From NCBI GenBank assembly GCA_018402545.1, contig JAGYIL010000001.1, positions 248,001 to 312,000 of the forward strand: a stretch of 64,000 nt of DNA, given 5' to 3'. The position numbers and the translations under genes are program-made. Below are positions 1,351 to 32,873 of this stretch, in pieces. The stretch comes from Saccharospirillum sp. GTDB lineage: Bacteria; Pseudomonadota; Gammaproteobacteria; Pseudomonadales; Natronospirillaceae. The first letter of the stretch is position 1. Each line of letters begins with the position of its first letter. Under the pieces are notes generated by a model. The model made no database searches. It saw only the letters and a program-made list of their open reading frames with translations, and was not told the DNA's origin.

Positions 1351-1532
1351 CGTCGGAGTTTGGGACTGTAGCATTGGTCCGCGTCGGATGCCGGGTGTGC
1401 CTCTGTGGGGTCGGCTTGAATCCGTCCATGGCGGTCCGACGTCTCGGGCCTAGACCGCAGCATCCATGCTGCGGACTACCCCACAGAGGTAACCCCGGCA
1501 CCCGTCGCTCGCATCGGGCCAACTCTGAAACC
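1351..1532 (-). repeat. Dispersed intergenic palindrome, copy 1
   Basis: Closing stem 1390-1411 / 1478-1499 (19/22 complementary); core CCGCAGCATGGATGCTGCGG...CATGGACGG on the minus strand; same architecture as copies 2-6. Confidence 0.8.
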
Positions 1533-1536
1533 TTGT

Positions 1537-1620
1537 ACTCACTACTAACAGCTCGTGGCTCTCAGCTCGAAGCTCTTAACTCGAAGCTCGCAGCTCACAA
1601 CTCGCAGCTCAGAACTTGCC
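1537..1620. repeat. Degenerate heptamer tandem array (RCTCNNA, about 12 units)
   Basis: ACTCACT ACTAACA GCTCGTG GCTCTCA GCTCGAA GCTCTTA ACTCGAA GCTCGCA GCTCACA ACTCGCA GCTCAGA ACTTGCC in constant 7-nt register. Confidence 0.8.
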
Positions 1621-1682
1621 TCAACCCCCCAAAACCCCGACACTCCCACTCCATAATAAATTCAAACGATACGCGCAGTACT

Positions 1683-2609
1683 ATGACCTCACGCCAACTC
1701 CTGATCGCCATCGGCTTCTCAGCCATGGCTAATTTCTTCTGGGCAACCAACGCCATCGTCGGCAAAATTGCCGTTGTATCGCTGCCGGCTTTTACCCTGT
1801 CCCAGTTTCGCTGGTGGCTGGCATTCTTGCTGATCGCGCCCTTTGGTATTCCGCATATCCGCCGCCAATGGCCCTGGTATCGAACTCACTTCAAAACGCT
1901 GCTGCTGCTCGCCTTGTTGAGTGTCACTCTGTACAACACGCTGCAGTACTGGGCCCTGAAGTACACTCAGCCAGTCAACGTTGGGGCCATGGCGGCGCTG
2001 ATGCCGGTGATGATCTTTATGCTCAGTGCCTGGCTGGGCATTGGTCGGATGAGCGTTGCCCAGTGGCTCACCGCCACGCTGGCTGTGTTCGGTGCCTTTG
2101 TGGTGCTTACGGATGGTCAGATGGCGCTCAGCATTGGTGGCCAGTCGCTGATCGGCGATGGTATTTTCTTTATCGGGTTGATCAGCTGGTCGTTCTATTC
2201 GGTGATGCTGAAGAAGTTGCCGGTCTGGGAAGTGAACAGCGTGGGCATGCTGACATTTTTTATTGGTGTGGGCAGTTTGATGATCGTACCGTTCTGGTTG
2301 AGCGGGGCTTTGCGTGGCGAGATTCTGATACCACCGACTGACTTGTGGTGGACGGTGGCTTATGTGGCGGTGTTTCCTTCGCTGGTCGCGTTCTTCTCCT
2401 GGATCAAGGCGGTGGGGGCCAGTAATGCCAACATTGCCGGGCTGATGATGACCACGGCACCACTGTTCAATGCGTTGTTGACGCTTGTGGTGCTACGTGA
2501 GCCGGTATCGGCGGCGCAGTGGCTGGGCATTGTCTGCGTTATTGTGGGTGTTGCGTTGACTTTGCTGTTGACGCAACTGCGGCAAAAAGCCAAAGGAATA
2601 GCAGAATGA
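1683..2609 (+). CDS. EamA/DMT family transporter
   Basis: Multi-TM protein with two EamA-like repeats; start reassigned to MTSRQLLIAIGFSAMANFFW (supplied ORF extends upstream through repeats). Confidence 0.85.
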   Translation: MTSRQLLIAIGFSAMANFFWATNAIVGKIAVVSLPAFTLSQFRWWLAFLLIAPFGIPHIRRQWPWYRTHFKTLLLLALLSVTLYNTLQYWALKYTQPVNVGAMAALMPVMIFMLSAWLGIGRMSVAQWLTATLAVFGAFVVLTDGQMALSIGGQSLIGDGIFFIGLISWSFYSVMLKKLPVWEVNSVGMLTFFIGVGSLMIVPFWLSGALRGEILIPPTDLWWTVAYVAVFPSLVAFFSWIKAVGASNANIAGLMMTTAPLFNALLTLVVLREPVSAAQWLGIVCVIVGVALTLLLTQLRQKAKGIAE

Positions 2610-3217
2610 GCATTGCGATTAAACAAAGCTACTGGGCGCTGGCGCTGATCTATCTGATTGCCATGCTGGGCTCGCCCTTTGCGTTCGAGTGGGTGATCAA
2701 GGCGGCACCAATCTGGTTGCTGGCCTTTGCTGTGTTACGTGCGTCTTCGGTGCCAGCGAAGCCATTGTTATTAGTGGCTATTCTGATCAGTTCGTTGGGT
2801 GATGTGCTGCTGGAGCTGAACCTCTTTGTGTTTGGGCTCGGTGCTTTTCTGGTGGCGCAGCTGACGTACGGTGTTTTGTTTGCCCGGCGCTTTGCCTGGC
2901 GGCCTGACCGGTTTGCCTGGGTGGTGTTTTTGCTGGTGTGGGCCATGGCGGTGCTGATCTGGTGCTGGCCAAACCTGGCGGCCCTTACGGTGCCAGTACT
3001 GGCGTACATGGTCGCCATCCTGTTCATGGGTGTGTCCGCTTTGAACAGCCGGTTTGCGCTGTATCCGGCGTTTTTTGGGGCGGCGGTGTTTATTCTGTCA
3101 GACTCCCTGATCGCTATTGGCTTGTTCGCGTCGCCGTTCCCGGGGCAACCCTGGGCGGTTATGCTGACTTACTATCTGGCCCAGTTCTGTATTGTGCGGG
3201 CTTTGTTGCGGGATTGA
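2606..3217 (+). CDS. Lysoplasmalogenase-like (YhhN/TMEM86 family)
   Basis: ATGA overlap with upstream gene; MSIAIKQSYWALALIYLIAMLGSP..., SSLGDVLLEL, multi-TM YhhN pattern. Confidence 0.75.
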   Translation: MSIAIKQSYWALALIYLIAMLGSPFAFEWVIKAAPIWLLAFAVLRASSVPAKPLLLVAILISSLGDVLLELNLFVFGLGAFLVAQLTYGVLFARRFAWRPDRFAWVVFLLVWAMAVLIWCWPNLAALTVPVLAYMVAILFMGVSALNSRFALYPAFFGAAVFILSDSLIAIGLFASPFPGQPWAVMLTYYLAQFCIVRALLRD

Positions 3218-3413
3218 AGAAAAGAGTTGCTGGATTGATGAACAGAACGCCATGGTCGGCGTTCGGTTTTGAGTATTAGGCCCTTCTAAAGCGGAGGCGC
3301 GGACCATCGGTTGCCTTTGGCCCGCGTGCGGGGTCAGACTGTCGCTTTAATAACAATAATACACGGCGACCGGTCGGCTATACTGACGTCGGGTCAGCCA
3401 GTGGAGGTTCTGT

Positions 3414-4661
3414 GTGAATCTGATTCTCTATGCCATTCCCGGTTTTATGCTGTTGTTGTTGATCGAGCTGGTCGTCGACTGGCGCAAGAAAACCGGTTAT
3501 TACCGCACCAACGATGCCATCGCCTCACTCAGCACCGGTATGCTCAGCCAGACCATGGGTTTTGCCACCCGGCTGGTGAGCTTTTTGGCTTACGCCACAC
3601 TGTGGGCGGTGTTGCCGCACGGCGAGCTGACCATGACGCCGCTGCTCTGGGTAGTGGCCTTTGTGTTCTATGATTTTTGCTATTACTGGAGCCACCGCAG
3701 TCAGCATCAGATCAATGTGCTCTGGGGAATTCATGTGGTGCATCACCAGAGTGAGGAATTCAACCTCTCTACGGCATTGCGCCAGCCGTTCAATGGCTTT
3801 GTGATCGGCTCGATTTTCTATTTGCCCATGCTGTTTGTCGGCTTTCCACCCGAAGTTATTGTCACTGTCGGTTCGCTGAATCTGATTTATCAGTATTGGG
3901 TGCATACCCGCTTTATCGGCACGCTGGGCTGGTATGAAAAGGTGTTTGTGACACCGATGAACCACCGGGTTCATCATGCCATTAACGACCCCTATATTGA
4001 CCGGAATTTTGGTGGTGTGTTCATTCTCTGGGACCGCCTGTTCCGGACGTACCAGCCGGAGCTGGCGGACGAACCCTGCGCTTATGGCGTACGCAAGCCG
4101 CTGCACAGCTGGAATCCGTTTTTCGCCAACTGGCATGCCTGGGGGCAGCTGATTCAGGATGCCTGGCACGCTCGCAGCTGGAAAGACAAGCTGCGGATCT
4201 GGTTTATGCCCACCGGCTGGCGACCGGAGGACGTTAAAGAAAACTATCCCCTGCCGCGTTGCCTGCCGGACACCCAGCAGAAATTCAATAACGCGCCGTC
4301 GGCCGCTGTCAGTGCTGTTGTGGTCGCGATACACATTGTGCTGATGGGCTGGACTGTCTGGTTCCTGCTGTTCACCAATGACCTGACGTTTGGCCTGGCG
4401 CTGGCGCACTTCGTTCCATTGGGCGGGGGGCTGTATATTAATGGCCGGATTCTGGAGCAACGCAAATACGCTACGCGGCTTGCGGCTGCGTTCTGGCTGC
4501 TTTGTGCCACCTTGCCCTGGTGGGTGTCTGGCTGGCTGTTGCCTGCAGGGCTGGTCGCTGCGCTGTTTGTGGCGTTTGCCGTCACCACGGTTCTGGCGGC
4601 GACCTGGTCACGTCGTAAAGTCTGGGCTGAGAAATCGGTGGATCCGCGCACGCTGGCCTGA
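3414..4661 (+). CDS. Sterol desaturase / fatty acid hydroxylase superfamily membrane protein (alkylglycerol monooxygenase-like)
   Basis: His-box motifs FYDFCYYWSHRSQHQINVLWGIHVVHHQSEEFN and MNHRVHHAIN. Confidence 0.85.
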   Translation: MNLILYAIPGFMLLLLIELVVDWRKKTGYYRTNDAIASLSTGMLSQTMGFATRLVSFLAYATLWAVLPHGELTMTPLLWVVAFVFYDFCYYWSHRSQHQINVLWGIHVVHHQSEEFNLSTALRQPFNGFVIGSIFYLPMLFVGFPPEVIVTVGSLNLIYQYWVHTRFIGTLGWYEKVFVTPMNHRVHHAINDPYIDRNFGGVFILWDRLFRTYQPELADEPCAYGVRKPLHSWNPFFANWHAWGQLIQDAWHARSWKDKLRIWFMPTGWRPEDVKENYPLPRCLPDTQQKFNNAPSAAVSAVVVAIHIVLMGWTVWFLLFTNDLTFGLALAHFVPLGGGLYINGRILEQRKYATRLAAAFWLLCATLPWWVSGWLLPAGLVAALFVAFAVTTVLAATWSRRKVWAEKSVDPRTLA

Positions 4662-4757
4662 TCGCGGCTGGGTTTGTGGCATCCGATCTGGCATTATTTG
4701 AGGTGATTCCGATTGTCAGGCCGGTTAGGCCTTCTGTCACCCAGGTGGGCCTACCTT

Positions 4758-7376
4758 TTAGGTGTTTACCCGCTCCTTTAGCAGTTTTGCGAAAGGTTGC
4801 GGACGGTAGAAGAAGTAGCCTTGCAGTTCGTCACAGCCCAGTTCCGCCAGTAACCTGACCTGGGCTTCGGTTTCTACACCTTCGGCGACCACCGTCAGGT
4901 CGAGCGTATGGCCCAGATCGATAATGGCCTCGACCAGGGCCAGGTGCCTGGGTCCGTCTTCGAGCCGCTGAATAAAGCGCTGATCGATCTTGAGAACGTG
5001 CAGCGGTAGCGCTTGCAACATGCCCAGGTTGGAATAACCGGTGCCGAAATCATCCATGGCAAAGCGAATGCCCATCGACGACAGTTCGGCCATGGCGGCC
5101 AGGGTTGTGTCGGATTCTTCGGTCAGTGAGTGCTCGGTTATCTCGAATTCAACGCGGTGTGCAGGCACATTGGCCTGGTGTATTTCACTGGCGATGAACA
5201 GGCTCAGATTCCGCTCCTCCAATTGCTTGGGCGACAGGTTGATTGATACCACGACGTCATCGTCAAGCTGACCCAGATGCTCACTGAACTCTTCCAGGGC
5301 GCGTCGGATAACCCAGTTGCCGATCTCGACAATCAAATGGCTGCCTTCGGCGATGGGAATAAATTCGCCAGGTGAAACCACGCCCAGTTCATGGCTGTTC
5401 CAGCGCAACAGGACTTCCAGGCTGCGCCAGCGCTGATCGACCCGGTCGACCCGGGGTTGCAGCACCAGGTGAAATTCGTTGTTTTGCAGGGCATAGGGCA
5501 GCAGGCGCAGTATGTCCTGGCGGCGGTCGTTTTCGAGGTTCATCTGGTCGGAGTAGAACTGGTAACTGCCGCGGTCGATCTCTTTGGCCTTGCGCAGGGC
5601 GATCTCGGCTTTCTTGACCAGGCCCTCATAGTCGGTGTCGTCGGTCGGGCTGGTGGCGATGCCCAGCGTTGCGGTAATACTGATGCGCACTTCGTCGATC
5701 TCAATGATCTCGGTGATGGATTTCAGCAGCGTATCGGCCACAAAGATGGAATGGCTGGGGTCTTTCAGGTTTTGCAGGCAAATGGCGAAGGTATCGCCAG
5801 ACAACCGGGCAACGGTATCGCTGTTGCGAATGCAGTACTTGATGCGTTCGGTCAGTTGCTTGAGTACCTCATCGCCAACGGTGTGACCATAGTTGGTATT
5901 GATGGCCTTGAAGTTGTCGAGGTCAAACAGCACCAGCGCCAGGTGGTTCTGATTGCGTTGCGACAGCGAAATGCCCTGCTGTACCTGCTTGCCGAAGAAA
6001 TTCCGGTTGGACGCACCGGTGAGTGAATCGTAGTAGTTCAGCTTCTGCAGCTCGGCCTCGGTCGACTTGATCTCGGTGATGTCGCGCAGCATCCCGGTCA
6101 GTTCCTGGTTGTCGTTTACGGCAATGGTTTGTTCTACCCAGAGCAGGGCGCTCGGGGTAATGATGCGGTGTTCGAAGCGGGCAAAGGGCTGGCTGCCATC
6201 CAGCACGCTCTGGGTATGCATGGTGAAGTAGGGCCGGTCGGGCTCGTAGATGTAGTTGATCATCGCCTCCCGGTTCAACCTGGGCTGATCGGTGCCGAGC
6301 AACTCCATCATCGGGGCCGATAAGGCAAACTGATCGCCAGGCAACGAGGTCCAGGAGCCCAGCCGGCCGAGCCGCTGTGCTTCCAGCAGCTTGCTCTCCT
6401 GAATTTTCAATTGCAGCCGCTCCTTTTCACGCTGACGCATGACGCGGTATTGCGACCCCAGCAGCAAGACGATGAATAGCCAGACCCCAAAGGCCGAAGC
6501 GCGGGTCAACCACAATGTCTGGGTGGGGGTTGCCCAGCCCGCCTGGGGCTCAGCCAGAACCGACCAGGCCAGGCCGCCGTGCTCAAACTGGTTGGATACC
6601 CGGTGACGGCCCAGAGTGCCCTGGCTGAACAAACGGGTTGTGTCTTCACCACGGCTGACGGACAAGCCCAGTTTGAGGTTATCCATACCCGAGACGGCCC
6701 GCGCGATGACCTGATCCAGTGAGACCACGCCCGAAATGATCATGTGTGGCTGGCCGGAGATTGGCAGGCGGTAGACCAGCGCCGTGTCGCCTTGCAGCAC
6801 GTTCAATGGACCAACGATTTTAGCCGTCTGGGTTTCCATCACGTCGCGGATGTCATCGACCTGGTCGGGCACCAGCGCCAGGTTGGTGCCAAGCAGGGCG
6901 AGATTCTGCGGCTCCGGTGGGTAAACGTGGGTGATCATGAACTGGTTGGTGATGGTGGTGTTCAGCAGACTAAACGTCTGCGCCGGAATCAATTGCTGCA
7001 ACCATTGCCGGTAGCGTTCCTGGCTGACATCGGGTTCCGTTGAAACCAGCAAGCTCAGTGCGTCCAGATAGCCCCGGTTGGCGATAAGAGCGGTTTCCAG
7101 TTGGCTGGAAAGGCGACCAATCTGTTCCCTTACGACCTGCTGTTGCTGACTGCGGTCCCGTTCAATCACCAGTACCTCAAACCACTGGGTTACCGGAACA
7201 ACGGTGACAGCTGCAAGCATAGCAAGATGTATTGCCGTTAAATTTCTGCGATAGTAAGCGCTCACTAATAGCGTGATGGCGGCCGCGGCAGCAAGGGCTG
7301 CATCGCCACCCGTTGAGTCTACGAAAAAGGTCGCCAGCAACAGCAACAATGCGGTGACCAGACTCACTACCAGCAT
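4758..7376 (-). CDS. CHASE-PAS-GGDEF-EAL signalling protein
   Basis: CHASE-like HVYPPEPQNLALLGTNL; GGDEF site reads RLSGDTF; EAL site EVLLRW with DDFGTGYSNL. Confidence 0.88.
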   Translation of the reverse strand: MLVVSLVTALLLLLATFFVDSTGGDAALAAAAAITLLVSAYYRRNLTAIHLAMLAAVTVVPVTQWFEVLVIERDRSQQQQVVREQIGRLSSQLETALIANRGYLDALSLLVSTEPDVSQERYRQWLQQLIPAQTFSLLNTTITNQFMITHVYPPEPQNLALLGTNLALVPDQVDDIRDVMETQTAKIVGPLNVLQGDTALVYRLPISGQPHMIISGVVSLDQVIARAVSGMDNLKLGLSVSRGEDTTRLFSQGTLGRHRVSNQFEHGGLAWSVLAEPQAGWATPTQTLWLTRASAFGVWLFIVLLLGSQYRVMRQREKERLQLKIQESKLLEAQRLGRLGSWTSLPGDQFALSAPMMELLGTDQPRLNREAMINYIYEPDRPYFTMHTQSVLDGSQPFARFEHRIITPSALLWVEQTIAVNDNQELTGMLRDITEIKSTEAELQKLNYYDSLTGASNRNFFGKQVQQGISLSQRNQNHLALVLFDLDNFKAINTNYGHTVGDEVLKQLTERIKYCIRNSDTVARLSGDTFAICLQNLKDPSHSIFVADTLLKSITEIIEIDEVRISITATLGIATSPTDDTDYEGLVKKAEIALRKAKEIDRGSYQFYSDQMNLENDRRQDILRLLPYALQNNEFHLVLQPRVDRVDQRWRSLEVLLRWNSHELGVVSPGEFIPIAEGSHLIVEIGNWVIRRALEEFSEHLGQLDDDVVVSINLSPKQLEERNLSLFIASEIHQANVPAHRVEFEITEHSLTEESDTTLAAMAELSSMGIRFAMDDFGTGYSNLGMLQALPLHVLKIDQRFIQRLEDGPRHLALVEAIIDLGHTLDLTVVAEGVETEAQVRLLAELGCDELQGYFFYRPQPFAKLLKERVNT

Positions 7377-7486
7377 GCAGTCTATCCTCGGCTTGGTTAA
7401 GGGTTTTTTCAGTATAGCCCTGATCAGAGGCTGGCGGATACAGCTTCACAGCCCCTGGCGAGCGGAAATGCTGACAGGGTTCGACT

Positions 7487-8885
<1,399 letters not shown>

Positions 8886-8893
<8 letters not shown>

Positions 8894-10409
8894 GGGTTAG
8901 CGTCTCCTGTGACAGATGCTGCAGCGGCAGACTCAACTCCGCCCGAAAACCACCCTGTTCCCCCTGGCTGAGGGTCAGCGTACCGTCGTGTTCGAGTGCC
9001 ACATTATTCACAATGGCCAGCCCCAGCCCGGAACCCTGGCCGGCTGGCTTGCTGGTGTAAAAAGGCTCCAGCAGGGTTTCACTGGGGGCCGTGGCCAGTT
9101 CGTTGCCATCGTCCTCAACGATGAACCGGACCGAGGTGGCATCCGCCGCGATAATGACCCGAACCTGGCTCTGTGCGGCTTGCATGGCGTTGCGCATCAG
9201 ATTGACCAGTGCCAGTACCAGTCGGGATTCGTTGCCGACCAGAGAGGGCAGGTCGGGCGCGATCTCCCACTGAATACCGGCCAGGTGCTCCGGCCATTCG
9301 GAAGACAGGTCGTGCCCTGCCGCCCGGGCGACCGATTCTGGGTTCAGGCGTACCTGAGCGTGACCGTCAGGGCGGCAGTAATCGAGCAGCTGGCGCACGA
9401 TCCGGTTCAGCCGGCTGACCTGATGCTCAATCTTTTGCAGCTGCTCCTGCCCCCGAGCGTCGTCACCAATGTGGTTTCTCAGGCGTCTGGCCCGTCCCGA
9501 AATAACGCTCAGTGGCGCACCCAGTTCATGCGCAATGCCGCTGGCAACCCGGCCAATGGCGGCCATTTTCTCCTGCGCCTGCATGCGCTTGTTCAGTTCC
9601 CGCTGGGATTGCTGATGTTCCCGGACCTCGCGCTCAGCCTGGTCGAGCCCATCGAGCATGCGGTTCAGTGCCAGGCTGATGTCCGCCATTTCACGCGGGC
9701 CCGTCGCCGGCACCCGAATGGAGCGGTCGCCTTCCTCAATGCGGTTCATGGCATAAACCAGGCGTTGCACATGGCGACCAATGCCGCGGTAGTGACCAAA
9801 GACGATGATTATCACCATCAACCCGGCGGCAATAATCCAGGCACCCCAGGAGTAGAGGTTCACCATTCGGTTGGCCTGGTCGAAGTCGCTTTCCAGTCGG
9901 GTGATCTGGATCAGGCCGTTAATCTGTCTTCCGGCACCGTACAAAGGCAGGAATTGGCTGAACAGATCGCGGCCATCAATGGTGCGCGAGCGTTCCTGGG
10001 TATCGCCGGTTTCCACGACGATTTGGGCAACCTGTGAATTGCGCAAGTTGGAATCGGCCGTACCGACAGAGGCAATGCGATTGCCGTCGATGTCGAAAAC
10101 GGTGGCACCGTAGACCCGGCCGATCGAGAAAACCGAGTTAAGGGCGTTCTGGATGTCTGCCTCCTGGCCATTGGCCAGGCTTTCACCAATGGGCAACCTG
10201 ACGGCCCGGGCGACCAGCTCCAGATCCTGCTTGAGCCGTTCTTCCTGCGCCGGTGCAACGGCCAGGTGCAGGCTCAACTGCACCACCAGAGCCGACAAAA
10301 TCAGCAGTGGCATTACCACCCAGACCAGCATCGATAAATGCAAACTTCGTAGTGGACCCTTAAACACGGTTTCTTGTCTCCGATTAAAGCGGTTTTGCGG
10401 CGATGGCAT
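8886..10409 (-). CDS. Membrane sensor histidine kinase (HAMP, HisKA, HATPase)
   Basis: GIAHELGAPLSVISGRARR H-box; GQGSGLGLAIV G-box; overlaps downstream response regulator. Confidence 0.93.
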
Positions 10410-10789
10410 CTGATAACCCCAAGTCGGGTGGTGTATCTAAAGTATACACCATCTCTCGCCCAGGTATCGTGGCAGTGCCGTGCAACAACTGTTAATGCAG
10501 GAAATGAACCAGCGCTCTGCGGGGTAAAGGCTGCCGTTGTTTTGTGTGCAGCGAACAACCTGGGAATGCAACGCTATTGCGGTGCAGGTCAGCAACGATC
10601 CGGACCTCTATGAGCGAAGTCAGGACCAGATGTGAGACAAATGTATACAGAGTGGGTACAAGGTATCCAGTGCAGGCGCCGAATACCTGACCTTTGCAAG
10701 GCACAAAGGAGAGGTCGTGTTTCGAGAAAATGTATAAAATCCTTTAAAATCAGTGGGTTAGTAAATTTCTTTTGCAATTTTCTAATGCC

Positions 10790-10805
10790 TGGCACGATTC
10801 CCGCT
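10790..10805 (+). promoter_or_regulatory. Candidate sigma-54 (-24/-12) promoter
   Basis: TGGCACGATTCCCGCT: perfect TGGCACG -24 element and GG-N10-GC spacing, ~100 bp upstream of the ATG at 10905. Confidence 0.6.
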
Positions 10806-10904
10806 ATTACCAGGTCAACCGGCGAGAAGGGCGTCTCTGACAAACTTAACCCGGCAAATACGTAAACGTTTATACATCAGGTAAGTAAAGTAAGGAGAGT
10901 CGAT

Positions 10905-11246: not shown

Positions 11247-11279
11247 TCGTCTCGACTGAGACTGGTTAGCATTGAGTCC

Positions 11280-11306: not shown

Positions 11307-11324
11307 TGCGTGGCGCCCCGGCGC

Positions 11325-15004: not shown

Positions 15005-16744
15005 ATGCCCCATCGCGCTCATCTGTTTTCCCTGAAGCCAGCCCATGCACTGCGCGAAGTGATGGCTGAAGGCTATAACACAGGCAAGCTGGTGCGTGAT
15101 CTGCTGGCGGGCATCACCGTTGGCATTATTGCGATTCCCCTGGCCATGGCCCTGGCGATTGCCAGCGGTGTCCCCCCTCAATACGGTCTCTACACCGCTA
15201 TCATTGCCGGCTTTGTTATCGCCCTGACCGGCGGTTCCCGGTTCAGTATCTCCGGCCCGACAGCCGCCTTCGTCGTTATCCTATACCCCATTGCCCAACG
15301 CTATGGATTGGGCGGCCTGTTATTGGCCACCGTGATGTCGGGCATGATTCTGGTCGGGCTGGCAGTGCTGCGCCTGGGCCGACTGATCGAATACATTCTC
15401 GAGTCGGTGACCCTGGGTTTCACGGCGGGCATAGCCGTTGTGATTGCCATCTTGCAGGTGAAGGATGTGTTCGGCTTACCCATCGAATCGATGCCGGAAC
15501 ACACTGCAGACAAGGTCTGGCTACTGGCACAGTCATTACCCGAACTTGCCTGGCCCAGTGTGTTTGTGGCCGTCGCCACTTTTGCCGTGCTGCTGCTTTG
15601 GCCCCGGTTGCGCTGGCCGGTACCGGCGCATTTACCAGCGGTAGTAGTGGGCACGCTGATCGCCTGGTGGCTGAACAGCCAGGGCTGGTCAGTCGATACC
15701 ATAGGCAGCCGGTTCAGTTACTCCCTGGCCGATGGGTCGACGGGGCAGGGCATTCCACCGGTGCTGCCAGCCTTTGAGTGGCCCTGGCAACGCGCCGGTG
15801 GCGATGGCTTGCCGGTTGGGTTGAGCTGGGCACTGGTCATCGAATTGTTGCCTGCCGCCTTCGCGATTGCCATGCTCGGTGCCATCGAATCCCTGCTCTG
15901 CGCCGTTGTGCTCGACGGCATGTCGGGCAAGCGGCACAGTGCCAACAGTGAGTTGCTGGGGCAGGGCATTGGCAACATCGTGACGCCGTTTTTCGGTGGC
16001 ATTACCGCAACGGCAGCCCTGGCCCGGTCGGCCGCAAATTTCAAGAACGGTGCGGTCAGTCCGGTTTCAGCCATGGTGCACGCCGGTGTCGTCCTGCTGG
16101 GTCTGGTAGCTCTGGCGCCGGTGCTCGCCTGGCTGCCCATGCCCGCTATGGCGGCCTTGCTGCTGATGGTCGCCTGGAACATGAGTGAAGCGCCCAAAGC
16201 CGTGCACCTGCTAAAAACCGCGCCGCGTGGCGATATCTGGGTGTTCCTGACCTGTTTCTCACTGACTGTACTGGTCGACATGGTGATGGCTATTACCGTG
16301 GGCATCCTGCTGGCGGCTGTGCTCTTTGTGAAAGAAATTGCCGAGATGACCCGCGTTACCGACATCAGCCAGAATCGCAAACTGGTCGAGGGTGACTTGC
16401 CCGAGGGCTGGACAGTCCTGAAGATTAACGGGCCTTTGTTTTTTGCCGCCGCGGATCGGGTTTTTGGTGAAATGGCACAACTGTGCCAGCAGCGTCAGGG
16501 CATAATTCTGTACATGGATGGCGTACCGATTCTCGATGCCGGCGGGCTCGCTGCCCTGGAAAAGCTGATCGCCAATTGCGGTCGAAACAACACCCGTATC
16601 TTCATCGCCGACCTGCAATTCCAGCCGCTGAAAACCCTGGCTCGCGCCAAGGTAAAGCCGGTACCGGGGGTCAGTCAGTATTTTTCAACGCTGAATGAGG
16701 CGTTGCTGGCGGTTCGGTCGGAGCGACCTTCCGTTGCCTCGTAA
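15005..16744 (+). CDS. SulP family anion permease with STAS domain
   Basis: LLAGITVGIIAIPLAMALAIASGVPPQYGLYTAIIAGFV; C-terminal STAS. Confidence 0.93.
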   Translation: MPHRAHLFSLKPAHALREVMAEGYNTGKLVRDLLAGITVGIIAIPLAMALAIASGVPPQYGLYTAIIAGFVIALTGGSRFSISGPTAAFVVILYPIAQRYGLGGLLLATVMSGMILVGLAVLRLGRLIEYILESVTLGFTAGIAVVIAILQVKDVFGLPIESMPEHTADKVWLLAQSLPELAWPSVFVAVATFAVLLLWPRLRWPVPAHLPAVVVGTLIAWWLNSQGWSVDTIGSRFSYSLADGSTGQGIPPVLPAFEWPWQRAGGDGLPVGLSWALVIELLPAAFAIAMLGAIESLLCAVVLDGMSGKRHSANSELLGQGIGNIVTPFFGGITATAALARSAANFKNGAVSPVSAMVHAGVVLLGLVALAPVLAWLPMPAMAALLLMVAWNMSEAPKAVHLLKTAPRGDIWVFLTCFSLTVLVDMVMAITVGILLAAVLFVKEIAEMTRVTDISQNRKLVEGDLPEGWTVLKINGPLFFAAADRVFGEMAQLCQQRQGIILYMDGVPILDAGGLAALEKLIANCGRNNTRIFIADLQFQPLKTLARAKVKPVPGVSQYFSTLNEALLAVRSERPSVAS

Positions 16745-17029
16745 CTCAAGTTTCGGAGTTCGGTTTGGCTAAGAGGCATTGGCCCGCACCGGCCACCTGG
16801 GATACCCCTGTGGGGTCGGGCGGGATGCCGCCCACTCAATCCGTCCTGGCGGTCCGACGTCTCGGGCCTAGGCCGCAGGATATGAATCCCATCCATGGGA
16901 TTCACCCTTCGGGTTCGCTTCGCTCATGCTAAAACGCTCCCGGCGTTTTAGTCCATGCTGCGGACTACCCCACAGGGGTACCCCAGGTAGCCGCCGCTTG
17001 TCATTTCGGCGAACTCCGAAACTTGAGTT
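16743..17029 (-). repeat. Dispersed intergenic palindrome, copy 2 (with ~80-nt insertion in one arm)
   Basis: Outer 20-bp perfect IR 16743-16762 / 17010-17029 (AACTCAAGTTTCGGAGTTCG); closing stem 16795-16816 / 16967-16988 (21/22). Confidence 0.9.
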
Positions 17030-22926: not shown

Positions 22927-22967
22927 AGAAAGCACAACACAAGGAAGTCGGCTGGCCCGATACCGGG

Positions 22968-23975
22968 TCAGGCCTTAAGCCGTGGGAAGACAGCGCGGGC
23001 GTTGTCTTCAAATACCATTTTCTTCTCGGCGGCGTTCAACTTGGTGTTGCCGTCGATGTAGCGTTTGGTATCGTCAAAGTAGTGACCGGTGCGCGGGTCG
23101 ATGCCGCGCACTGCACCAATCATCTCTGAAGCAAACAGAATGTTTTTGGTCGGAATCACGTCGAGCAGCAGGTCGATGCCTTCCTGGTGATAGACACAGG
23201 TATCGAAGTAGATGTTGTTCAACACCTTCTCTTCCAGATCGAACCCCTGGTCCTGGGCAATGCCGCGGAACCGACCCCAGTGATAAGGCACCGCGCCACC
23301 ACCGTGCGGGATGATGAACTTGAGATCCGGGAAATCCTTGAACAGATCCGACATCATCAAATGCACAAAAGCGGTAGTGTCGGCACTGAGGTAGTAGGAA
23401 CTGGTGGTGTGGAAGCACTCGTGGCACGAACCGGACACATGAATCATTGCCGGAATGTTCAGCTCGCTCATCTTCTCGTAAATCGGGTACCAGAACTTGT
23501 CGTGCAGCGGCTTGTCTTTCCAGTAACCACCGGAAGGGTCCGGGTTCAGGTTGCAGCCGATGAAGCCCATCTCGTTAACGGTCCGTTCAAGCTCGCGCAC
23601 CACAGCATCCGGTTTGACGTTGGCGCTCTGGGGTAACTGGGCCACCGGCGCAAAGTTCTCCGGGAACAGATCGCAGACACGGCGAATCAGATCGTTGCAA
23701 TGCTCTGTCCAGGCGACGCTGGTGCTTTCGTTGCCAATGTGATGCCCCATCCAGCTGGCGCGAGGTGAAAAAATAGTCAGGTCAGTGCCGCGCTCCTGCT
23801 GAAGTTTCAGCTGGTTGTTCTTGATGCTGTCACGAATCTGGTCGTCGGTGATGTTCAGAATACCCTTGGTAGTCTGAAACATCGGATCGTTTTTCAGCTC
23901 CGCTTTTTGCTGGTCACGGTAATCGCCCAGCTCCGACGGTGCGGTGGTGTAATGTCCATGGCAATCGATGATCAT
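22968..23975 (-). CDS. ligJ: Amidohydrolase, LigJ-like 4-oxalomesaconate hydratase
   Basis: MIIDCHGHYTT..., FIGCNLNPDPSGGYWK, IPAMIHVSGSC, FIIPHGGGAVPYHWGRFRG. Confidence 0.8.
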   Translation of the reverse strand: MIIDCHGHYTTAPSELGDYRDQQKAELKNDPMFQTTKGILNITDDQIRDSIKNNQLKLQQERGTDLTIFSPRASWMGHHIGNESTSVAWTEHCNDLIRRVCDLFPENFAPVAQLPQSANVKPDAVVRELERTVNEMGFIGCNLNPDPSGGYWKDKPLHDKFWYPIYEKMSELNIPAMIHVSGSCHECFHTTSSYYLSADTTAFVHLMMSDLFKDFPDLKFIIPHGGGAVPYHWGRFRGIAQDQGFDLEEKVLNNIYFDTCVYHQEGIDLLLDVIPTKNILFASEMIGAVRGIDPRTGHYFDDTKRYIDGNTKLNAAEKKMVFEDNARAVFPRLKA

Positions 23976-24030
23976 GGCCGTCTCCAGTTTTGTTGTAATC
24001 CCAGAGTCTCAGGGATGTGTTGTAGTCTCA

Positions 24031-24230
24031 GTAACTCAAGGTTCGAAGTTTGCACAGGACGAGCGATGGTTGCCGGTGATGTCTCTGTGGGGAAGTCCGC
24101 AACATGGATGTTGCGGCCTAGGCCCCATGGACGGGTTCACGCCGACCCCACAGAGACATCACCGGTAGCCAGCGCGGGCGCAAGCCACCAGTGAACCCCT
24201 GACTCCGAAGCTGGTCGCACAGCGACCAGC
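24031..24230 (+). repeat. Dispersed intergenic palindrome, copy 3
   Basis: 20-bp perfect closing stem 24073-24092 / 24146-24165; core CCGCAACATGGATGTTGCGG, CCCCATGGACGGG. Confidence 0.88.
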
Positions 24231-24239
24231 CCTTGCCAA

Positions 24240-25476
<1,237 letters not shown>

Positions 25477-25669
25477 GGGTCGCTCTCTCAATGTTGAATG
25501 GTTCATTCTGGTACGGCGTTGCCAGTATAGTCGTTGTCCCGGTTGCCTCCTGTTGTCACTTTCGCTGGGCAACAGGGCACCGGTTTTATTCAGCTACGCT
25601 TTGGGGGTGACAACCAGACTAGTTAAGTGCACAATTTGGGACAACCTATAACATTAGGACGTTTCGTTC

Positions 25670-26560
25670 ATGAAGTGGAACATATCTGATTTGCCCGTCT
25701 TTGTGGCGGTTGTTGAAAAAGAAGGTATTTCGGCCGCGGCACGTTCGTTACGGATGCCGAAGTCGAGCGTTAGCCGGTTTGTACAGCGTTTGGAAGATGA
25801 CCTCCAGGTGCGCCTGCTGGAGCGCAACTCCCGCCAGATGCGGATGACCAGTGAAGGCGAGGTGTTCTTCAAACACTGTCAGCTCATCATGGAGCAGGTT
25901 GAAGCCGCCGATGCGCACATGAATGGCCTGAGCCACACCCCCAGCGGTGAGCTGACCATTTCACTGCCGATGGCGTTCAGCCGCGATGTACTGGCCGGTC
26001 ACCTGCACCGTTTCAACAAGCAGTATCCGGAGATTCAGCTGAACATTCAGGTAACCCCCACGGCGGTGGATCTGATCGGCGAGCACATTGATCTGGCGGT
26101 TCAGGTGGGTGATTTGCCCGATTCGGAACTGATCGCCGTCCCCCTGTTCGAGACCCCGCTGATCTGGGTGGCCAGCCCGAACACCTACCCGGCCGGCCAT
26201 ACCTTCCCCGGTCTGGATGCGCTGGTCGAGCAGGTGCACGTCTGCGAACGCCGCTACAACAAAACGGCGTTGCCGGTGCGTTACCAGTGCGACAAGCACA
26301 AGGTGGAAATACAGGCCTCGATCGAAACCACTGACCCGATTATGGTGCGCGATACGGTTATCGCCGGCTCTGGCGTTGGCCTGCTGCCCTCACTTTACTG
26401 CCGCAAGGCCATCGAACGCGGCGAGCTGGTGCAGGTGGCCCAGAACATGGAGCTGGACCTGATGGCCAAAGCCTCAGCGGTCTATACCAGCCGCCGCATG
26501 CTAAGCGCCAAGACCCGGTTGTTCATCGAGTTTCTTAAAGAACTGACCGTTGAGATGTGA
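25670..26560 (+). CDS. LysR-family transcriptional regulator
   Basis: N-terminal HTH (VFVAVVEKEGISAAARSLRMPKSSVSRFVQRLEDDLQVRLLERNSR); divergent from ligAB. Confidence 0.93.
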   Translation: MKWNISDLPVFVAVVEKEGISAAARSLRMPKSSVSRFVQRLEDDLQVRLLERNSRQMRMTSEGEVFFKHCQLIMEQVEAADAHMNGLSHTPSGELTISLPMAFSRDVLAGHLHRFNKQYPEIQLNIQVTPTAVDLIGEHIDLAVQVGDLPDSELIAVPLFETPLIWVASPNTYPAGHTFPGLDALVEQVHVCERRYNKTALPVRYQCDKHKVEIQASIETTDPIMVRDTVIAGSGVGLLPSLYCRKAIERGELVQVAQNMELDLMAKASAVYTSRRMLSAKTRLFIEFLKELTVEM

Positions 26561-26593
26561 GATCTGGCTAGGGTTTTCTAAGGTGGCTAAGTC

Positions 26594-26814
26594 GGGTGTC
26601 ATGAGTTAGAAATTCGCGGACAATTTGGCTGGTTACCTTCCTTTGCTTCAGTGCCAAACGGACTGTCGGGTGTGTCTGCTGGGGGCACGCCGTAAATACA
26701 TCCATGTAGACTCGGAGACCGCGTCCCTGCGGTCTAACGGCCCCCAGCAGACACACCCAACAGTCCTTGTATAGTAAGTGGTTCAATCAACTCGAATTTC
26801 TAACTCATGACACC
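26594..26814. repeat. Dispersed intergenic palindrome, copy 4 (divergent subfamily)
   Basis: Perfect 23-bp outer IR 26594-26616 / 26792-26814; closing stem 26660-26686 / 26740-26766 (26/27). Confidence 0.9.
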
Positions 26815-26856
26815 CTGAGCCCAGCGGTCACAGCAACCACAGTAATTTTTCTATAT

Positions 26857-26872
26857 TTCGATATTACTAGAA
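26857..26872 (+). promoter_or_regulatory. Candidate ArsR operator 1
   Basis: TTCGATATTACTAGAA inside ATATTTC-N10-GAAATAT dyad upstream of arsR. Confidence 0.6.
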
Positions 26873-26912
26873 ATATATTGACGACCTGCTTCCCGGGTGG
26901 ATAATTAGCCCA

Positions 26913-27215
26913 ATGACAACACTTACACTTGAACAAGCCGCCGCCCAACTGGCAGAACTGGGCCACCCGACCCGCCTGGGGCTATATCGTCTTTTAGTTC
27001 GCGCCGGCCATGGTGGGGCACCGGTTGCCGAATTGCAGCAGCAACTGGAGGTGCCAGGGTCTACCTTGTCGCACCACCTGAGTCGCTTGGTTAATGTCGG
27101 TCTGGTGAAGCAGGTTCGGGAAGGGCGGGTATTGCGGTGTTTTGCCCAGTACGACCGGTTGAACACCCTGATCGGTTACCTGATGGAAGAGTGCTGTACC
27201 GAGAGCAGTTGCTAA
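26913..27215 (+). CDS. arsR: ArsR/SmtB-family regulator
   Basis: winged-HTH ([44 protein letters not shown]), C-terminal ECCTESSC cysteines; arsH downstream. Confidence 0.85.
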
Positions 27216-27245
27216 CGGTTGAGCGAGTTTTTTTTGGTTTTATAG

Positions 27246-27261
27246 TTCGATATATCTGGAA
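27246..27261 (+). promoter_or_regulatory. Candidate ArsR operator 2
   Basis: TTCGATATATCTGGAA, 13/16 identical to operator 1, in the arsR-arsH gap. Confidence 0.5.
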
Positions 27262-27274
27262 TTATGGAGGCATT

Positions 27275-28006
27275 ATGACACTGATACCCGACCACAGTCT
27301 TGAGAGCACCCTGAGTGAGTTGCAGAAGGGCTATCAGCAACCCAATTCCCATGCGCCGCGGATTCTGGTGTTGTATGGCTCACTGCGGCCAGAGTCGAAC
27401 AGCCGCAAGCTGGCGCTGAACGCCGCTCAGATGCTGGAGCAGTTCGGGGCCGAAGTGCGGGTGTTTGATCCGGAAGGCTTGCCGGTGTGCGACCGGGTCT
27501 CGGTGGATCACCCCAAGGTTGTTGAGCTGCGTGAGCTGGCGCAGTGGAGCGAAGGCATGGTCTGGTGTTCCCCGGAAATTCATGGCGCGGTGTCGTCGGT
27601 GTTTAAAAATCAGATCGACTGGATACCGCTCAGTGAGGGCGCGATTCGGCCAACTCAGGGCAAGACGCTGGCGGTGATGCAGGTTAACGGCGGGTCGCAG
27701 TCGTTTAATGTGGTCAATGCGCTGCGCGTGCTGGGCCGCTGGATGCGCATGTTCACCATCCCCAATCAGTCATCGGTGCCCAAAGCCTTTCAGGAATTCG
27801 ATGCCGATGGCCAGATGAAGGATTCGCCCTACCGCGACCGGGTTGTGGATGTGATGGAGGAGTTGTTCCGCATGACACTGCTGCTGCGCAACCAGTCTGC
27901 GATGCTGACGCATCGTTTTTCAGAGAACAAGGCGGATTATCAGGCTCGGGTTGACGATGTTGCCAGCGTAGAATCCCCGGTTGCCAAACGTCCGTGCTGC
28001 GCCTGA
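27275..28006 (+). CDS. arsH: ArsH organoarsenical oxidase / NADPH-FMN reductase
   Basis: [50 protein letters not shown]. Confidence 0.93.
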
Positions 28007-29139
28007 TTCATCAGCACAGCCAGCCAACGGTACTGGCCAGCGGTGTATTAACATTGGCGCTGGTGTCCGATTCGGTTCTGTATTTATTGCTGCCGCTGTA
28101 CTTTGAAGACTTCGGGCTAACGCTGATCTGGGTCGGTATTCTGTTGTCGGCCAATCGCTTCGTCCGCTTGCTGATCAACCCCTGGTTGCTGCCCTGGTTC
28201 GAGCGCTTTGGCCCGCGCACCTCCATGTTGCAAGCTGTTGCCCTGGCCACGGCCGCGAGCCTGGCGTTTCTGATGCTTTCCAGCCCCTGGGTGTTATTGC
28301 TCGCCCGTTTGCTGTGGGGCATGGCTTATGCGCTGATGCGGCTGGGGTGTCTGCATTACGCGACTCACCAGCCGGAACGACGCATGGTGAACCTGGGCTG
28401 GTACACCAGCTTGCAGGAAGTCGGGCCCTTGTCGGTGTTGCTGATCGCGCCCTGGCTGGTGCAATTCATTGCTATTGAGGCCGTGCTGGTGCTGGCCAGC
28501 GCGCTCTGCCTGGTGGCGTTGTGGCCGGCGCTGGCGTTGCCCCGGGCGCAATCGGACCCGCAGTCGCCAACCCGGGCGCGCTTTCCCTGGCCCAATGCCT
28601 GGCACCGGCTGACGTTTGTTTTGTGCTTGTTGTTCGATGGAGTCTGGACCGTGGTATTGGCGCCTTTGCTGGTGGTCGCCGGCTGGTCGACGGCGGCCGC
28701 CCTGGCGATCACCGCCTGGTTGCTGCTTGCCAAGCGACTGTTCAATTTGCTGGTAGGGGTGGTCTCTATTCGGGTGAATCCCTGGGTGCCCGAACGGCTT
28801 TGGCTGGGTATTTCCCTGGCTCTGATGCTGGTCGCCGGTGTGCTGATGGCCCTCACTGAGGTGCTCTGGGCCAGTGGGTTCGCCATCACTGGGCACGGGC
28901 TCTACATGATACTGGTGCCCAAGCGCCTGGCGGACGAGGCATTGTCTGATGGCAGCCGTCACCACAGCCTGAATGGTTTCACCTTCTGGCGGGATCTGGC
29001 CGCCGCCACAGGTGCACTGCTGGCCAGTCTGTTGCTGGCAGCAAGCTGGACGCCAATGTTCTACGGCTTGCTCACAGGCTTGGTGGCATTGATGCTGCTG
29101 TCGGCAAGATACGGTGTTATATCGTCCACATCGAACTGA
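27994..29139 (+). CDS. MFS transporter in the ars cluster
   Basis: 12-TM-like MFS pattern; overlaps arsH end by 13 nt. Confidence 0.85.
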
Positions 29140-30701
29140 TCGGGTAATAGAAAACGCTCGGCATAGTCTCTCCATTTACCACTGCGCAGAAACAGCTCGA
29201 ATACATCCGGGTCGATGTGCTGGTCGTCGCGCATGTTTTTCAGAATGGAAAATGCCTGGCTCAACGGCATCGGCGGTTTGTAGGGGCGTTCTTTCGCCGT
29301 CAGCGCTTCGAACACATCGGCCACGCCCATCATCCGGGCCGGAATCGACATTTGCTCGCGGGTCAGGCCGCGCGGAAAGCCGCGCCCGTCCATGCGTTCA
29401 TGGTGCCCTCCTGCATACTCCGGTACCCGGCGCAATTTGGGTGGAAAGGGCAGTTGCTCGAGAATATCGATGGTAATGTCGATGTGGCGATTAATTGCCT
29501 GGCGTTCTTCGTCGTTCAGGGTACCCCGGGTAATGCACAGGTTGGTGACTTCATCTTCGTTCAGTAATGGCTGGGTGTTGCCCCAGGCATCGCGCCAGGT
29601 CCGGCTGGCAATGGCCCGAACCCGGTCTTTTTCCGGCTCTGGCATAAACTCACCACCGCGATTAATCCGCTCCAGAAAATCCAGCTCTTCACGCAAGGCA
29701 TCGACTTCAGCCGCCGACGCGGCCTGGGCCATGGCGGCGGCGAAGCGCGCGGCAACGGCATCGAAGCCATCGAGCAGGCGTTGCAGCTTGCGGCCCTTGT
29801 TCAGAATGGTTTCCGAGGTGGCCAGCTTGCCGCAGTCGTGCAGCCAGGCGGCTACGTGCAGCTCATACCATTCGTCATCGTTTAAGTTGAAGTCAGCGAA
29901 GTAGCCCTCGGTTTCCTCGCAGGCCGCGCGCGCCATCATTTCCGTCAATACCGGAATGCGCTCGCAATGGGCCGAGGTATGCGACGACCTAACATCAATG
30001 ATACGTGCCAGAGCCTGAATAAAGGCATCGAGCAGGTCTTTATGGCTTTGCACCAGTAACTGGTTATCGAGTGACAGGGCGGCAAACTTGGCCATGGCCT
30101 GAACGGTGCGCTGGTCGTCATCGGTGAAGGGGCGGGTCTCGCCTTCCGCGGTGTGTGCATTAATCAGCTGCAGCACGCCAATCACCCGGTCTTCATGGTT
30201 TAACAGCGGCAGAGTCAGCATGGAGCGGGAGCGATAACGGTGTTCGGCATCAAAATGGCGGGTACCGCTGAAATCGAAATCGCCAGTCTGATAAACATCA
30301 TCAATATTGACCGCCTGACGCGTCAGGGCCACCCAGGAGGCAACATTCTGATGATTTGGCTGACCGCTCCCGGAGCCATTCGACGGGCGATGATAAAGCG
30401 GAATGGCCGGCCATTGGCTCAGCTGATCCGGGTCGCGGCTTTCCAGCCCAAGCACCGTATTATGAATGGCCTTAAAGACTAACTGAGGAGAATCCGAACT
30501 TTCATCCAGCTGGTAAAAAGTGCCACCTTCAGCCCCGGTCAGCAACCGGGCTTCTTTCAGAATGCGATGCATCAGCCCGGCTACGGTAGTTTCCCGTGCC
30601 AGTCGAACCAGCAAATCACTGGTGGAATCCACACTCCAGGCGGCTAGTGCCCTATCAGTGTGTTCTGAATGATTTCGAACAGAAGGGTCGGGGGTCGTCA
30701 T
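29061..30701 (-). CDS. GAF domain + HD-GYP-like c-di-GMP phosphodiesterase
   Basis: GAF region; HDCGK, then HHERMDGRGFPRG (GFP rather than GYP); start reassigned to MTTPDPSV. Confidence 0.85.
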   Translation of the reverse strand: MTTPDPSVRNHSEHTDRALAAWSVDSTSDLLVRLARETTVAGLMHRILKEARLLTGAEGGTFYQLDESSDSPQLVFKAIHNTVLGLESRDPDQLSQWPAIPLYHRPSNGSGSGQPNHQNVASWVALTRQAVNIDDVYQTGDFDFSGTRHFDAEHRYRSRSMLTLPLLNHEDRVIGVLQLINAHTAEGETRPFTDDDQRTVQAMAKFAALSLDNQLLVQSHKDLLDAFIQALARIIDVRSSHTSAHCERIPVLTEMMARAACEETEGYFADFNLNDDEWYELHVAAWLHDCGKLATSETILNKGRKLQRLLDGFDAVAARFAAAMAQAASAAEVDALREELDFLERINRGGEFMPEPEKDRVRAIASRTWRDAWGNTQPLLNEDEVTNLCITRGTLNDEERQAINRHIDITIDILEQLPFPPKLRRVPEYAGGHHERMDGRGFPRGLTREQMSIPARMMGVADVFEALTAKERPYKPPMPLSQAFSILKNMRDDQHIDPDVFELFLRSGKWRDYAERFLLPDQFDVDDITPYLADSSINATKPVSKP

Positions 30702-30888
30702 ACTGCGCTCCTGAGGTCCCGATAACTGCGTGGCAGAGCCACAGCAGAAAAGCATAGCCCAGATGTGCGGTGGAGTGACCCCTTGGGGGCAAAATAGTTG
30801 GCAGTTTGGCAACTGAGTCAGAAATCCGTGTCGGCCACAAGGTAGGCCTATCCTGGTTTTCAGTCGTCCGAGTTACCGAGAAACTTAG

Positions 30889-31000
30889 TGCCGGACACCC
30901 GGTATACCTCTCCGGGGTAGTTCGCAGCATGGATGCTGCGATCTAGGCTCCATGGATGGATCTACGCCGACCCCGGAGAGGTATACCGGGTGTCCGGCAC
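30889..31000 (+). repeat. Dispersed intergenic palindrome, copy 5
   Basis: Perfect 31-bp IR 30889-30919 / 30970-31000; core CGCAGCATGGATGCTGCG. Confidence 0.92.
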
Positions 31001-31040
31001 GGACTCATGCCTCCTGAAAAAGAAACCTCCCAGACAGCCA

Positions 31041-31856
31041 CTACTCCTCAACCGTCCGAACTTCACCCTCACGCCCGGCCATTCGGGTGCGTAACCAGCC
31101 CCAGAGCCGTCGGGTAGTGCGATTTGGCGTAGCCTGGTTGTAAAACGAGGCTTGCCCGGGGTCTCGGATCTGAGTGAAGCGTTCGAGTTGGTTGCGTCGG
31201 GCGGCCGCGCGGCGGTTATCGGCCGCACTTAACGCCGCCGGGGTGTCGTCGGAGACCCAGTCGAGTATCGCGATGTTCAGGCTGCCGATCAGGTCGGGCA
31301 GGTCGGGTTCGATGGTTTTGGCGTTGACCATTATCAGCCCGTAGCCGATGTCCTGGTCTGGCGTCAGACGTTCCGACAGATAGCGGGCCGCCCAGTAGGC
31401 GCCCTCACCATAGCCAAGAATCACCAGATTGAACTGGCCGTCCTGGTTCAGTCGTTGCAGACCGAGCGCAATGCGATCGAGCGTCGCATCGGCATCGGTG
31501 GCATAGCCGCCGACCAGTGGCAGGGCGATCGACAGGGTATTCCAGCCGACATCGGGCAGATAGTTGCGTGTTTGTTGCAGCAACACTGGCCAGTCCGGGT
31601 TGTGGCCCTGGTCGTGCAGAATCAGCACCGCACCCTGGGGATTTGCCGTGCGTTGTTGCAGGCTGAGGCCCAGAAAGGCGTTATCGCCTTCGCCCAGAAT
31701 GACGATTTCTTCGCCATTTTGAGCATTGGCCCGGGCCTGAGCCAGGTCATTCAGGTGGTTGGCACGCGCCTGGCCCAGCGCTTCTGCCCGGCTGTAAGCG
31801 CTAACCGCGAGCAGGGCAAACAGGCTGACCATCAGCAGCAGGGAGCGTTTTGTCAT
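31041..31856 (-). CDS. DUF3530 family alpha/beta-hydrolase-like secreted protein
   Basis: Signal peptide; GAVLILHDQGHNPDWP; LVILGYGEGAYWAARYL. Confidence 0.8.
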   Translation of the reverse strand: MTKRSLLLMVSLFALLAVSAYSRAEALGQARANHLNDLAQARANAQNGEEIVILGEGDNAFLGLSLQQRTANPQGAVLILHDQGHNPDWPVLLQQTRNYLPDVGWNTLSIALPLVGGYATDADATLDRIALGLQRLNQDGQFNLVILGYGEGAYWAARYLSERLTPDQDIGYGLIMVNAKTIEPDLPDLIGSLNIAILDWVSDDTPAALSAADNRRAAARRNQLERFTQIRDPGQASFYNQATPNRTTRRLWGWLRTRMAGREGEVRTVEE

Positions 31857-31959
31857 CGGGCGGTAACCCGGGTTTTATCGGTGGTCGGACACATTGGCGT
31901 TTGACCTCCCTCTGGCAGTCACTAGAATGGGCGTTCCGCCAGCCGTGAGACGCCCCGAA

Positions 31960-32637
31960 ATGTCCGATTTTGTCATAGCCCCCTCCATTCTGTCCGCCGA
32001 TTTTGCCCGCCTGGGCGAAGAAGTGGATGCCGTTCTGAACGCCGGTGCCGACTGGGTCCACTTCGATGTGATGGATAACCACTACGTGCCCAACCTGACC
32101 ATCGGCCCCATGGTGTGCAAGGCATTGCGCAATCACGGCGTGACCGCACCCATCGACGTGCACCTGATGGTGTCTCCAGTAGATCGGCTGATTGGCGACT
32201 TTATTGAGGCCGGCGCCAGCATCATTACCTTCCACCCGGAAGCCAGCGACCACATCGATCGCTCGCTGCAGCTGATCCGTGATGGCGGCTGCAAGGCCGG
32301 CCTGGTATTCAACCCGGCCACCCCGCTGCATTATCTCGATTACGTGATGGACAAGATCGACCAGGTGCTGATCATGTCGGTCAACCCCGGTTTCGGCGGT
32401 CAGTCATTCCTGCCCTCCGCGCTCGATAAACTGCGTGACGCCCGCGCCCGTATACAAGCCTCGGGCCGCGATATTCGGCTGGAAGTCGACGGCGGCGTGA
32501 AAGTCGATAACATCCGGGCAATAGCCGAAGCCGGTGCTGATGCGTTCGTTGCCGGCTCTGCCATTTTTAACACTGATGACTACAAAACCCGCATCGCCGA
32601 AATGCGCGAGGAACTGGCCAAAACCCGTAGCGCCTGA
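31960..32637 (+). CDS. rpe: Ribulose-phosphate 3-epimerase
   Basis: [48 protein letters not shown]. Confidence 0.97.
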
Positions 32638-32689
32638 TCGATGTCTACCACTCAGTTAATGGCTCAGTTGCCTCCACAGAGTGGTTTTG

Positions 32690-32873
32690 ACTTAAGGTTC
32701 GGAGTTTGCAACCAATTGAGTGTCAGGTGCCGGGTGTACCTATCCGGGGTAGTCTGCAGCAGGGATGCTGCAGTCTAGGCCCCATGGATGGGTTTACGCC
32801 GACCCCGGATAGGTATACCCGGTGCCTGGCACGGACTCATGGCACCAATGTACAACCGAACTCCGAAACGCGA
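32690..32873 (+). repeat. Dispersed intergenic palindrome, copy 6
   Basis: Closing stem 32724-32750 / 32802-32828 (25/27); core CTGCAGCAGGGATGCTGCAG, CCCCATGGATGGG; imperfect outer IR TTCGGAGTT. Confidence 0.88.

Follow-up and report, generated by a model that had tools for sequence, protein, structure and literature searches.

Six palindromic elements stand between genes in the first 33 kb of the window, by which we mean the whole 64-kb stretch of DNA analysed here. Do they belong to a known kind of repeat, and in what form are their stems under selection: as duplex DNA, as part of the messages of neighbouring genes, or as a folded single strand of their own?

A first-pass annotation had given coordinates and folds for all six, and a perfect 31-bp inverted repeat in copy 5; inspection of the sequence and folding bear this out (Table 1). 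It had also proposed one shared architecture. The copies are indeed homologous, but copies 1, 2 and 4 run in the opposite orientation. That none lies beyond 33 kb agrees with a search by R1, a covariance model based on 42 divergent copies, none of them from Yersinia: it matches five of the copies and finds no further one in the window at E<=0.01. Copy 2 is missed by the model because inserts split its arms; a nested hairpin element, with TGAATCCCATGGATGGGATTCA of its own, interrupts the first arm. The outer repeats of this copy (AACTCAAGTTTCGGAGTTCG, at 16743-16762 and 17010-17029) have no mismatches. Copy 4 is a variant, with GGGTGTCATGAGTTAGAAATTCG as its outer repeat and TACATGGATGTA as its P3 arm.

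Table 1. The six elements of the window, with the loops and the bulge of copy 6
Feature	Position	Strand	Basis and remarks
Copy 1	1351..1532	-	Core 1397-1491; model R1, 61.5 bits; CGAGACGTCGGACCGC insert in second arm
Copy 2	16743..17029	-	Homologous by BLAST; unmatched by model R1
Copy 3	24031..24230	+	Core 24080-24159; model R1, 94.6 bits
Copy 4	26594..26814	-	Core 26673-26752; model R1, 82.1 bits
Copy 5	30889..31000	+	Core 30905-30984; 93.6 bits; closing stem perfect, 31 bp; outer repeats decayed
Copy 6	32690..32876	+	Core 32737-32816; 97.4 bits, E 5.9e-25; outer repeats near 32690-32709 and 32857-32876
Copy 6, first-arm hexaloop AGGGAT (ANGGAN), C-G closing pair	32761..32766	+	Sequence and covariation, pairs 18-24/32-38
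Copy 6, second-arm hexaloop ATGGAT (ANGGAN)	32784..32789	+	Sequence and covariation, helix 4
Copy 6, five-base bulge TTTAC on 3' side of second arm; conserved T-N-N-A-C	32793..32797	+	Invariant T57, A60 and C61

The fold and its covariation

Read on the strand that carries the GGA loops (the GGA strand), the element consists of a variable closing stem P1 of 20-31 bp and, within it, two arms, P2 and P3. P2 ends in a CANGGANG loop and is followed by a linker with an invariant AG. P3 has a CANGGANG loop as well, then the bulge T-N-N-A-C on its 3' side and a closing helix, for which one lineage has GGC/GCC and others have GCC/GGC (pair 44-64 is GC in 20 copies and CG in 18). In this genus the core is enclosed by the outer repeat AACTCAAGTTTCGGAGTTCG; copy 4 and its relatives have a different one.

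The stems covary, as had been claimed from the six copies. Among the 42 divergent copies both sides have changed in 24 of 26 pairs, and 91.2% of cells are paired, against 35-49% when the partners are slid; the covariation score is 0.666 against 0.181 for shuffled alignments, none of 500 shuffles scoring as high. The loops are no less constant. A loop-agnostic pattern retrieved 129 copies, 118 with two A.GGA loops (an earlier set had 77 out of 80); 20 nt separate the two GGAs in 82 copies and 24 nt in 26. Among intergenic hairpins A.GGA. is the commonest hexaloop, and it does not occur in 296 coding loop readings.

Kinship, abundance and turnover

The first-pass annotation had taken no position on whether the family is undescribed, and had given a match to a known repeat family as a refutation of its reading. 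Named families do match: YPAL (also called RU-2) of Yersinia, the Rfam motif TwoAYGGAY and the Yersinia small RNA Ysr224. We are confident that the elements of the window belong to the YPAL/TwoAYGGAY kind. The Y. pestis RU-2 sequence printed by Delihas (PMC2759123) has P1, P2, linker and P3 as here and folds accordingly, and R1 matches three Yersinia YPAL loci with 53.6-58.8 bits (E 8e-13 to 2e-14). YPAL elements (about 168 bp; De Gregorio 2006, Delihas 2007) are, like the copies of the window, intergenic, mobile and close to genes. They share the P1 stem, the P2 arm CCGCGCCAAGGATGGCGCGG, a GAG-bearing linker and P3 (CCTACATGGATGTATTTACGGCG). The window copies differ in their outer repeats (AACTCAAGTTTCGGAGTTCG or GGTGTCATGAG...) and in having a longer and unbroken P1, tandem G.A pairs in some P2 arms, mostly a CTAG linker, and GGC/GCC rather than GCC/GGC; they are also far more diverse among themselves.

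TwoAYGGAY (RF01731; Weinberg 2010) likewise has twin AYGGAY-looped arms under a long stem, and tandem G.A pairs are reported for it, such as we see in P2 of 13 of 77 copies. Its second arm in Rfam, however, is a longer hairpin without the bulge of P3, and it entered the literature as an RNA rather than a dispersed repeat. Two copies from the genome of the window score 49.6 and 47.8 bits against RF01731, above the gathering threshold of 43, and copies from relatives score close to that cut-off; most copies fall below it, and Rfam at gathering level has no match in the window itself. Ysr224 (RF02770) scores 126-130 bits at the Yersinia YPAL loci on the opposite strand: it is YPAL read from the non-GGA strand, annotated as an independent small RNA, and its model matches copies from outside Yersinia weakly. 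Outside the literature search lay the original YPAL paper; within it, we found no published statement uniting the three. What had been catalogued separately as an insertion element of Yersinia, as an orphan RNA motif and as an opposite-strand small RNA is joined here into a single abundant gammaproteobacterial repeat, which suggests that cross-genome counts of such "sRNAs" are counts of a mobile repeat. ERIC and REP/BIME with RAYT tyrosine transposases are also palindromic intergenic repeats of many copies between co-directional or convergent genes. The REP/RAYT architecture clearly differs: by their published descriptions, REPs are 20-40 bp long, carry GTAG or CGTC tags and lack twin GGA loops.

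How common is the element? BLAST with copy 6 finds dozens of additional sites in the same genome. R1 accepted all 150 candidates scored, so that the genome holds at least 150 copies, and there are 25 in the 264 kb examined completely. Extrapolated from that density, the 4.25-Mb genome probably carries about 400; genome-wide figures rest on these scored candidates, at least 150, and on sampled stretches. BLAST detects the element in five of five congeners, and R1 is positive in 76 of 195 genomes of the order and in 55 of 274 of the class. Exact P3 cores are carried by Yersinia, Stenotrophomonas, Lysobacter, Methylotuvimicrobium, Ectothiorhodospira, Alishewanella, Arsukibacterium and Thiopseudomonas, among others. 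Collections of plasmids, phages and E. coli genomes gave nothing beyond a weak match (31 bits) on a Pantoea plasmid.

Copies have been gained, lost and inverted at orthologous sites. In one congener, about 81% identical in syntenic DNA, 36 flanked copies can be compared; about a dozen sites are filled in both genomes and many are empty, the divergence being too great to fix the exact ends of the elements and hence any target duplications. The copies in common show compensated stem changes, one of them with three pair-to-pair replacements and no broken pair. At four orthologous sites the elements lie in opposite orientation. One of these, locus L092, is an in-place inversion: a 52-nt core is identical but reverse-complemented, and the stem arms flanking it are nearly unchanged. 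The element is best explained as a non-autonomous intergenic repeat, formerly or still mobile.

Strand asymmetry of stem mismatches

In duplex DNA a G.T mismatch on one strand is an A.C mismatch on the other, and neither strand is favoured. If the stems were maintained as DNA cruciforms, or if repair perfected the palindromes without any selection, each strand should therefore have the two kinds in equal numbers. In the closing stems of 101 copies, read on the GGA strand, we count 142 G.U and 7 A.C, and 52 purine-purine against 16 pyrimidine-pyrimidine mismatches. Copies from other genera have 28 G.U and 10 A.C in the closing stem of the same strand; those of Yersinia YPAL are too uniform in sequence for an informative count. 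It is true that the stems are long and often perfect, and the inversion at L092 shows that recombination or template switching does occur at the stem. Cruciforms and unselected correction nevertheless leave the invariant loops unexplained as well, and with the asymmetry against them we reject both as most improbable. Of the interpretations first offered for the six copies, a selected three-way-junction fold and a MITE/ERIC-like dispersed element are upheld, by the covariation, by presence and absence among congeners and by the terminal inverted repeats; the cruciform is the one that the strand-asymmetric mismatches remove.

The element offers an internal control. In 25 copies the pairs of the outer repeats include 39 G.U and 27 A.C, against 40 and 0 in the closing stems that they enclose, and in 26 copies with decayed outer repeats the closing stems still have 38 and 2. 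We infer from this that the core is constrained in place, although part of the contrast could come from lineages of active elements whose outer repeats simply were unpaired.

A selected strand might still be that of the neighbouring message. Palindromes transcribed together with an upstream gene could stabilise or process the 3' end of its mRNA, with no need for a particular strand or loop, and a review of the Yersinia work proposes such a role for YPAL. The positions would suit it. Most elements are centred 55-150 nt from a stop codon; among 73 copies, none within a called gene, the flanking genes are co-directional in 56 cases, convergent in 14 and divergent in just 3. (By our own gene calls all six window copies do sit between co-directional genes, as had been noted; genome-wide this is merely a tendency.) Orientation, however, is random. 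With the GGA loops taken as sense, the 56 copies between co-directional genes divide into 27 sense and 29 antisense, and five of the six window copies are antisense to their neighbours. The ratio of G.U to A.C is 40:0 in antisense copies, 38:2 in sense copies and 9:0 between convergent genes, so that it persists where the gene transcribes the other strand. Given random orientation and an asymmetry independent of gene strand, we reject a function in read-through mRNA; mRNA 3'-end hairpins, which also leave the conservation of the GGA loops unexplained, are improbable. Since the asymmetry is on the GGA strand irrespective of gene orientation, selection has in all likelihood acted on that one strand, folded as a single strand, and neither on a cruciform nor on a read-through message.

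The strand asymmetry of closing-stem mismatches is a new observation, and the count is a simple test, applicable to any palindromic repeat, of selection on RNA or single-stranded DNA versus duplex DNA. A first impression from the flanks, that the elements prefer terminators, is not supported by the sample of gaps: 2 of the 23 gaps that hold an element have terminator-like sites, as do 25 of the 190 that lack one.

Possible roles of the folded strand

The mechanism that we prefer is that the GGA strand acts as RNA and that one CsrA/RsmA dimer would bind both of its loops. Any copy that is transcribed would then offer CsrA a binding site, which may titrate CsrA, mark and protect the transcript that carries it, or both. 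That a repeat of the YPAL/TwoAYGGAY kind makes an RNA with CsrA-bridged loops is the best explanation we can offer, and we give it not quite an even chance; that the predicted binding is the biological point of the element we suggest somewhat more tentatively. The published CsrA/RsmE site is an ANGGAN hexaloop (RUACARGGAUGU), and a dimer bridges sites 10-63 nt apart, best above 18. The elements fit in loop size and in both variable positions of the loop, as well as in the closing pair and the spacing. For TwoAYGGAY, binding of CsrA was put forward in 2014, as an untested proposal (PMC4333381); in the papers searched we found none that links YPAL with CsrA. The genome of the window has one csrA gene, and csrA is present in 37 of 40 element-rich genomes; one such genome, 98% complete, has no match to it. 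Because nearly every genome here carries csrA, finding the gene adds little support.

Several points count against a CsrA-binding RNA. Given the near-equal numbers of sense and antisense copies, about half would have to be transcribed against the neighbouring genes, and a scan of copies 5 and 6 for sigma-70 promoters found none. Were the sponge made up of hundreds of copies, each one would be under little selection. The conserved bulge TTYAC and the AG of the linker are not accounted for by CsrA.

Alternatively, the folded GGA strand, as single-stranded DNA or RNA, could be the intermediate by which the element spreads. An enzyme acting in trans (a recombinase, a transposase or a reverse transcriptase) would read its two-arm form, and the fold would be selected for mobility. 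We consider this possible, if on the doubtful side. It would explain why selection on one strand disregards gene orientation, and it is in keeping with the many presence/absence differences among congeners and with the outer inverted repeats. The target duplications of YPAL vary from 3 to 26 bp, with targets near dyad symmetries (PMC2229807); such variation is unusual for a cut-and-paste transposase and would fit an unusual route of insertion. Adjacent copies, moreover, are arranged as - then + in 12 of 12 pairs, and the whole-genome list adds one pair in the same order (C1:2624467-/2624635+). On the other hand, old-looking copies, those in common with the 81% identical congener or with decayed outer repeats, keep an intact stem, so that, besides mobility, re-insertion time and again or gene conversion would have to contribute. 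Nor is there any bias relative to replichore (38+/40- and 11+/11-), and single-stranded DNA linked to a replication strand was rejected on this ground. No autonomous partner was seen either: the outer repeat has 107 matches in the genome, and among the matches listed, inverted pairs lie less than 300 bp apart and none surrounds a gene as an autonomous transposon with the same outer repeats would.

The function of TwoAYGGAY becomes directly testable. To return to CsrA, its binding would set a global regulator in competition with the copies of the repeat, in their hundreds. A bolder suggestion, which we regard as rather unlikely, is that YPAL, TwoAYGGAY and Ysr224 are one class-wide mobile family with twin CsrA docking sites, and that dispersed selfish repeats, hundreds of them, load the Csr/Rsm regulator, serving as a genome-wide sponge or using CsrA binding for RNA-mediated spread of the element. 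The sponge RNAs CsrB/CsrC and RsmX/Y/Z also present GGA-looped hairpins at bridging distance. Their many sites are gathered in a single dedicated gene or a few such genes, whereas the elements described here are many dispersed loci with two sites each.

Orientation of the elements

Adjacent copies of the YPAL-type element are arranged in one order only: in all 12 pairs from G000 (the genome of the window) and its congener G001, a - copy (signs give the strand bearing the GGA loops) is followed by a + copy, never the reverse, so that their 5' ends face each other (for example, G000:C1:102083/102343). At loci L092 (G000:C4:389932), L021 and L023 and at G000:C1:2431834, a single intergenic site holds elements of opposite orientation in two species. 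At L092 the difference is a single clean inversion of the element core.

Other repeats with GGA loops

A hairpin element, CTAAAACGCCNGGAGCGTTTTAGC...GAATCCCATGGATGGGATTC, is nested in the P2 arm of YPAL-type copies, an insertion seen repeatedly, and it again has GGA loops. A second intergenic family, CAGGCTGTTGAAATTC...CCTTTTTCAACAACCTG, occurs in G000 and G001. It shares with YPAL-type elements an ANGGAN loop, here in its internal hairpin CCGGAACANGGANGTTCCGG, but in other respects looks unrelated to them.

Positions of the additional repeats
Repeat	Position
CTAAAACGCCNGGAGCGTTTTAGC...GAATCCCATGGATGGGATTC, nested	window 16862-16955; G000:C1 near 44685, 2350527, 2469307, 2534947
CAGGCTGTTGAAATTC...CCTTTTTCAACAACCTG	G000:C1:2368409-2368633; G001:C3:29518-29706; G001:C3:56057-56242
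CACCTAGGGAGCCTCTGAACAACTCC-ended	G001:C3:20935-21278
AACTCGNAGCTC-type	window 1545-1620

Further observations

The long palindromic repeat with CACCTAGGGAGCCTCTGAACAACTCC ends, a further family, is missing from the orthologous site in G000. Short degenerate AACTCGNAGCTC-type repeats adjoin copy 1, and a stretch resembling them adjoins element locus L014. Nine csrA homologues are present in G035, one of the element-rich genomes.
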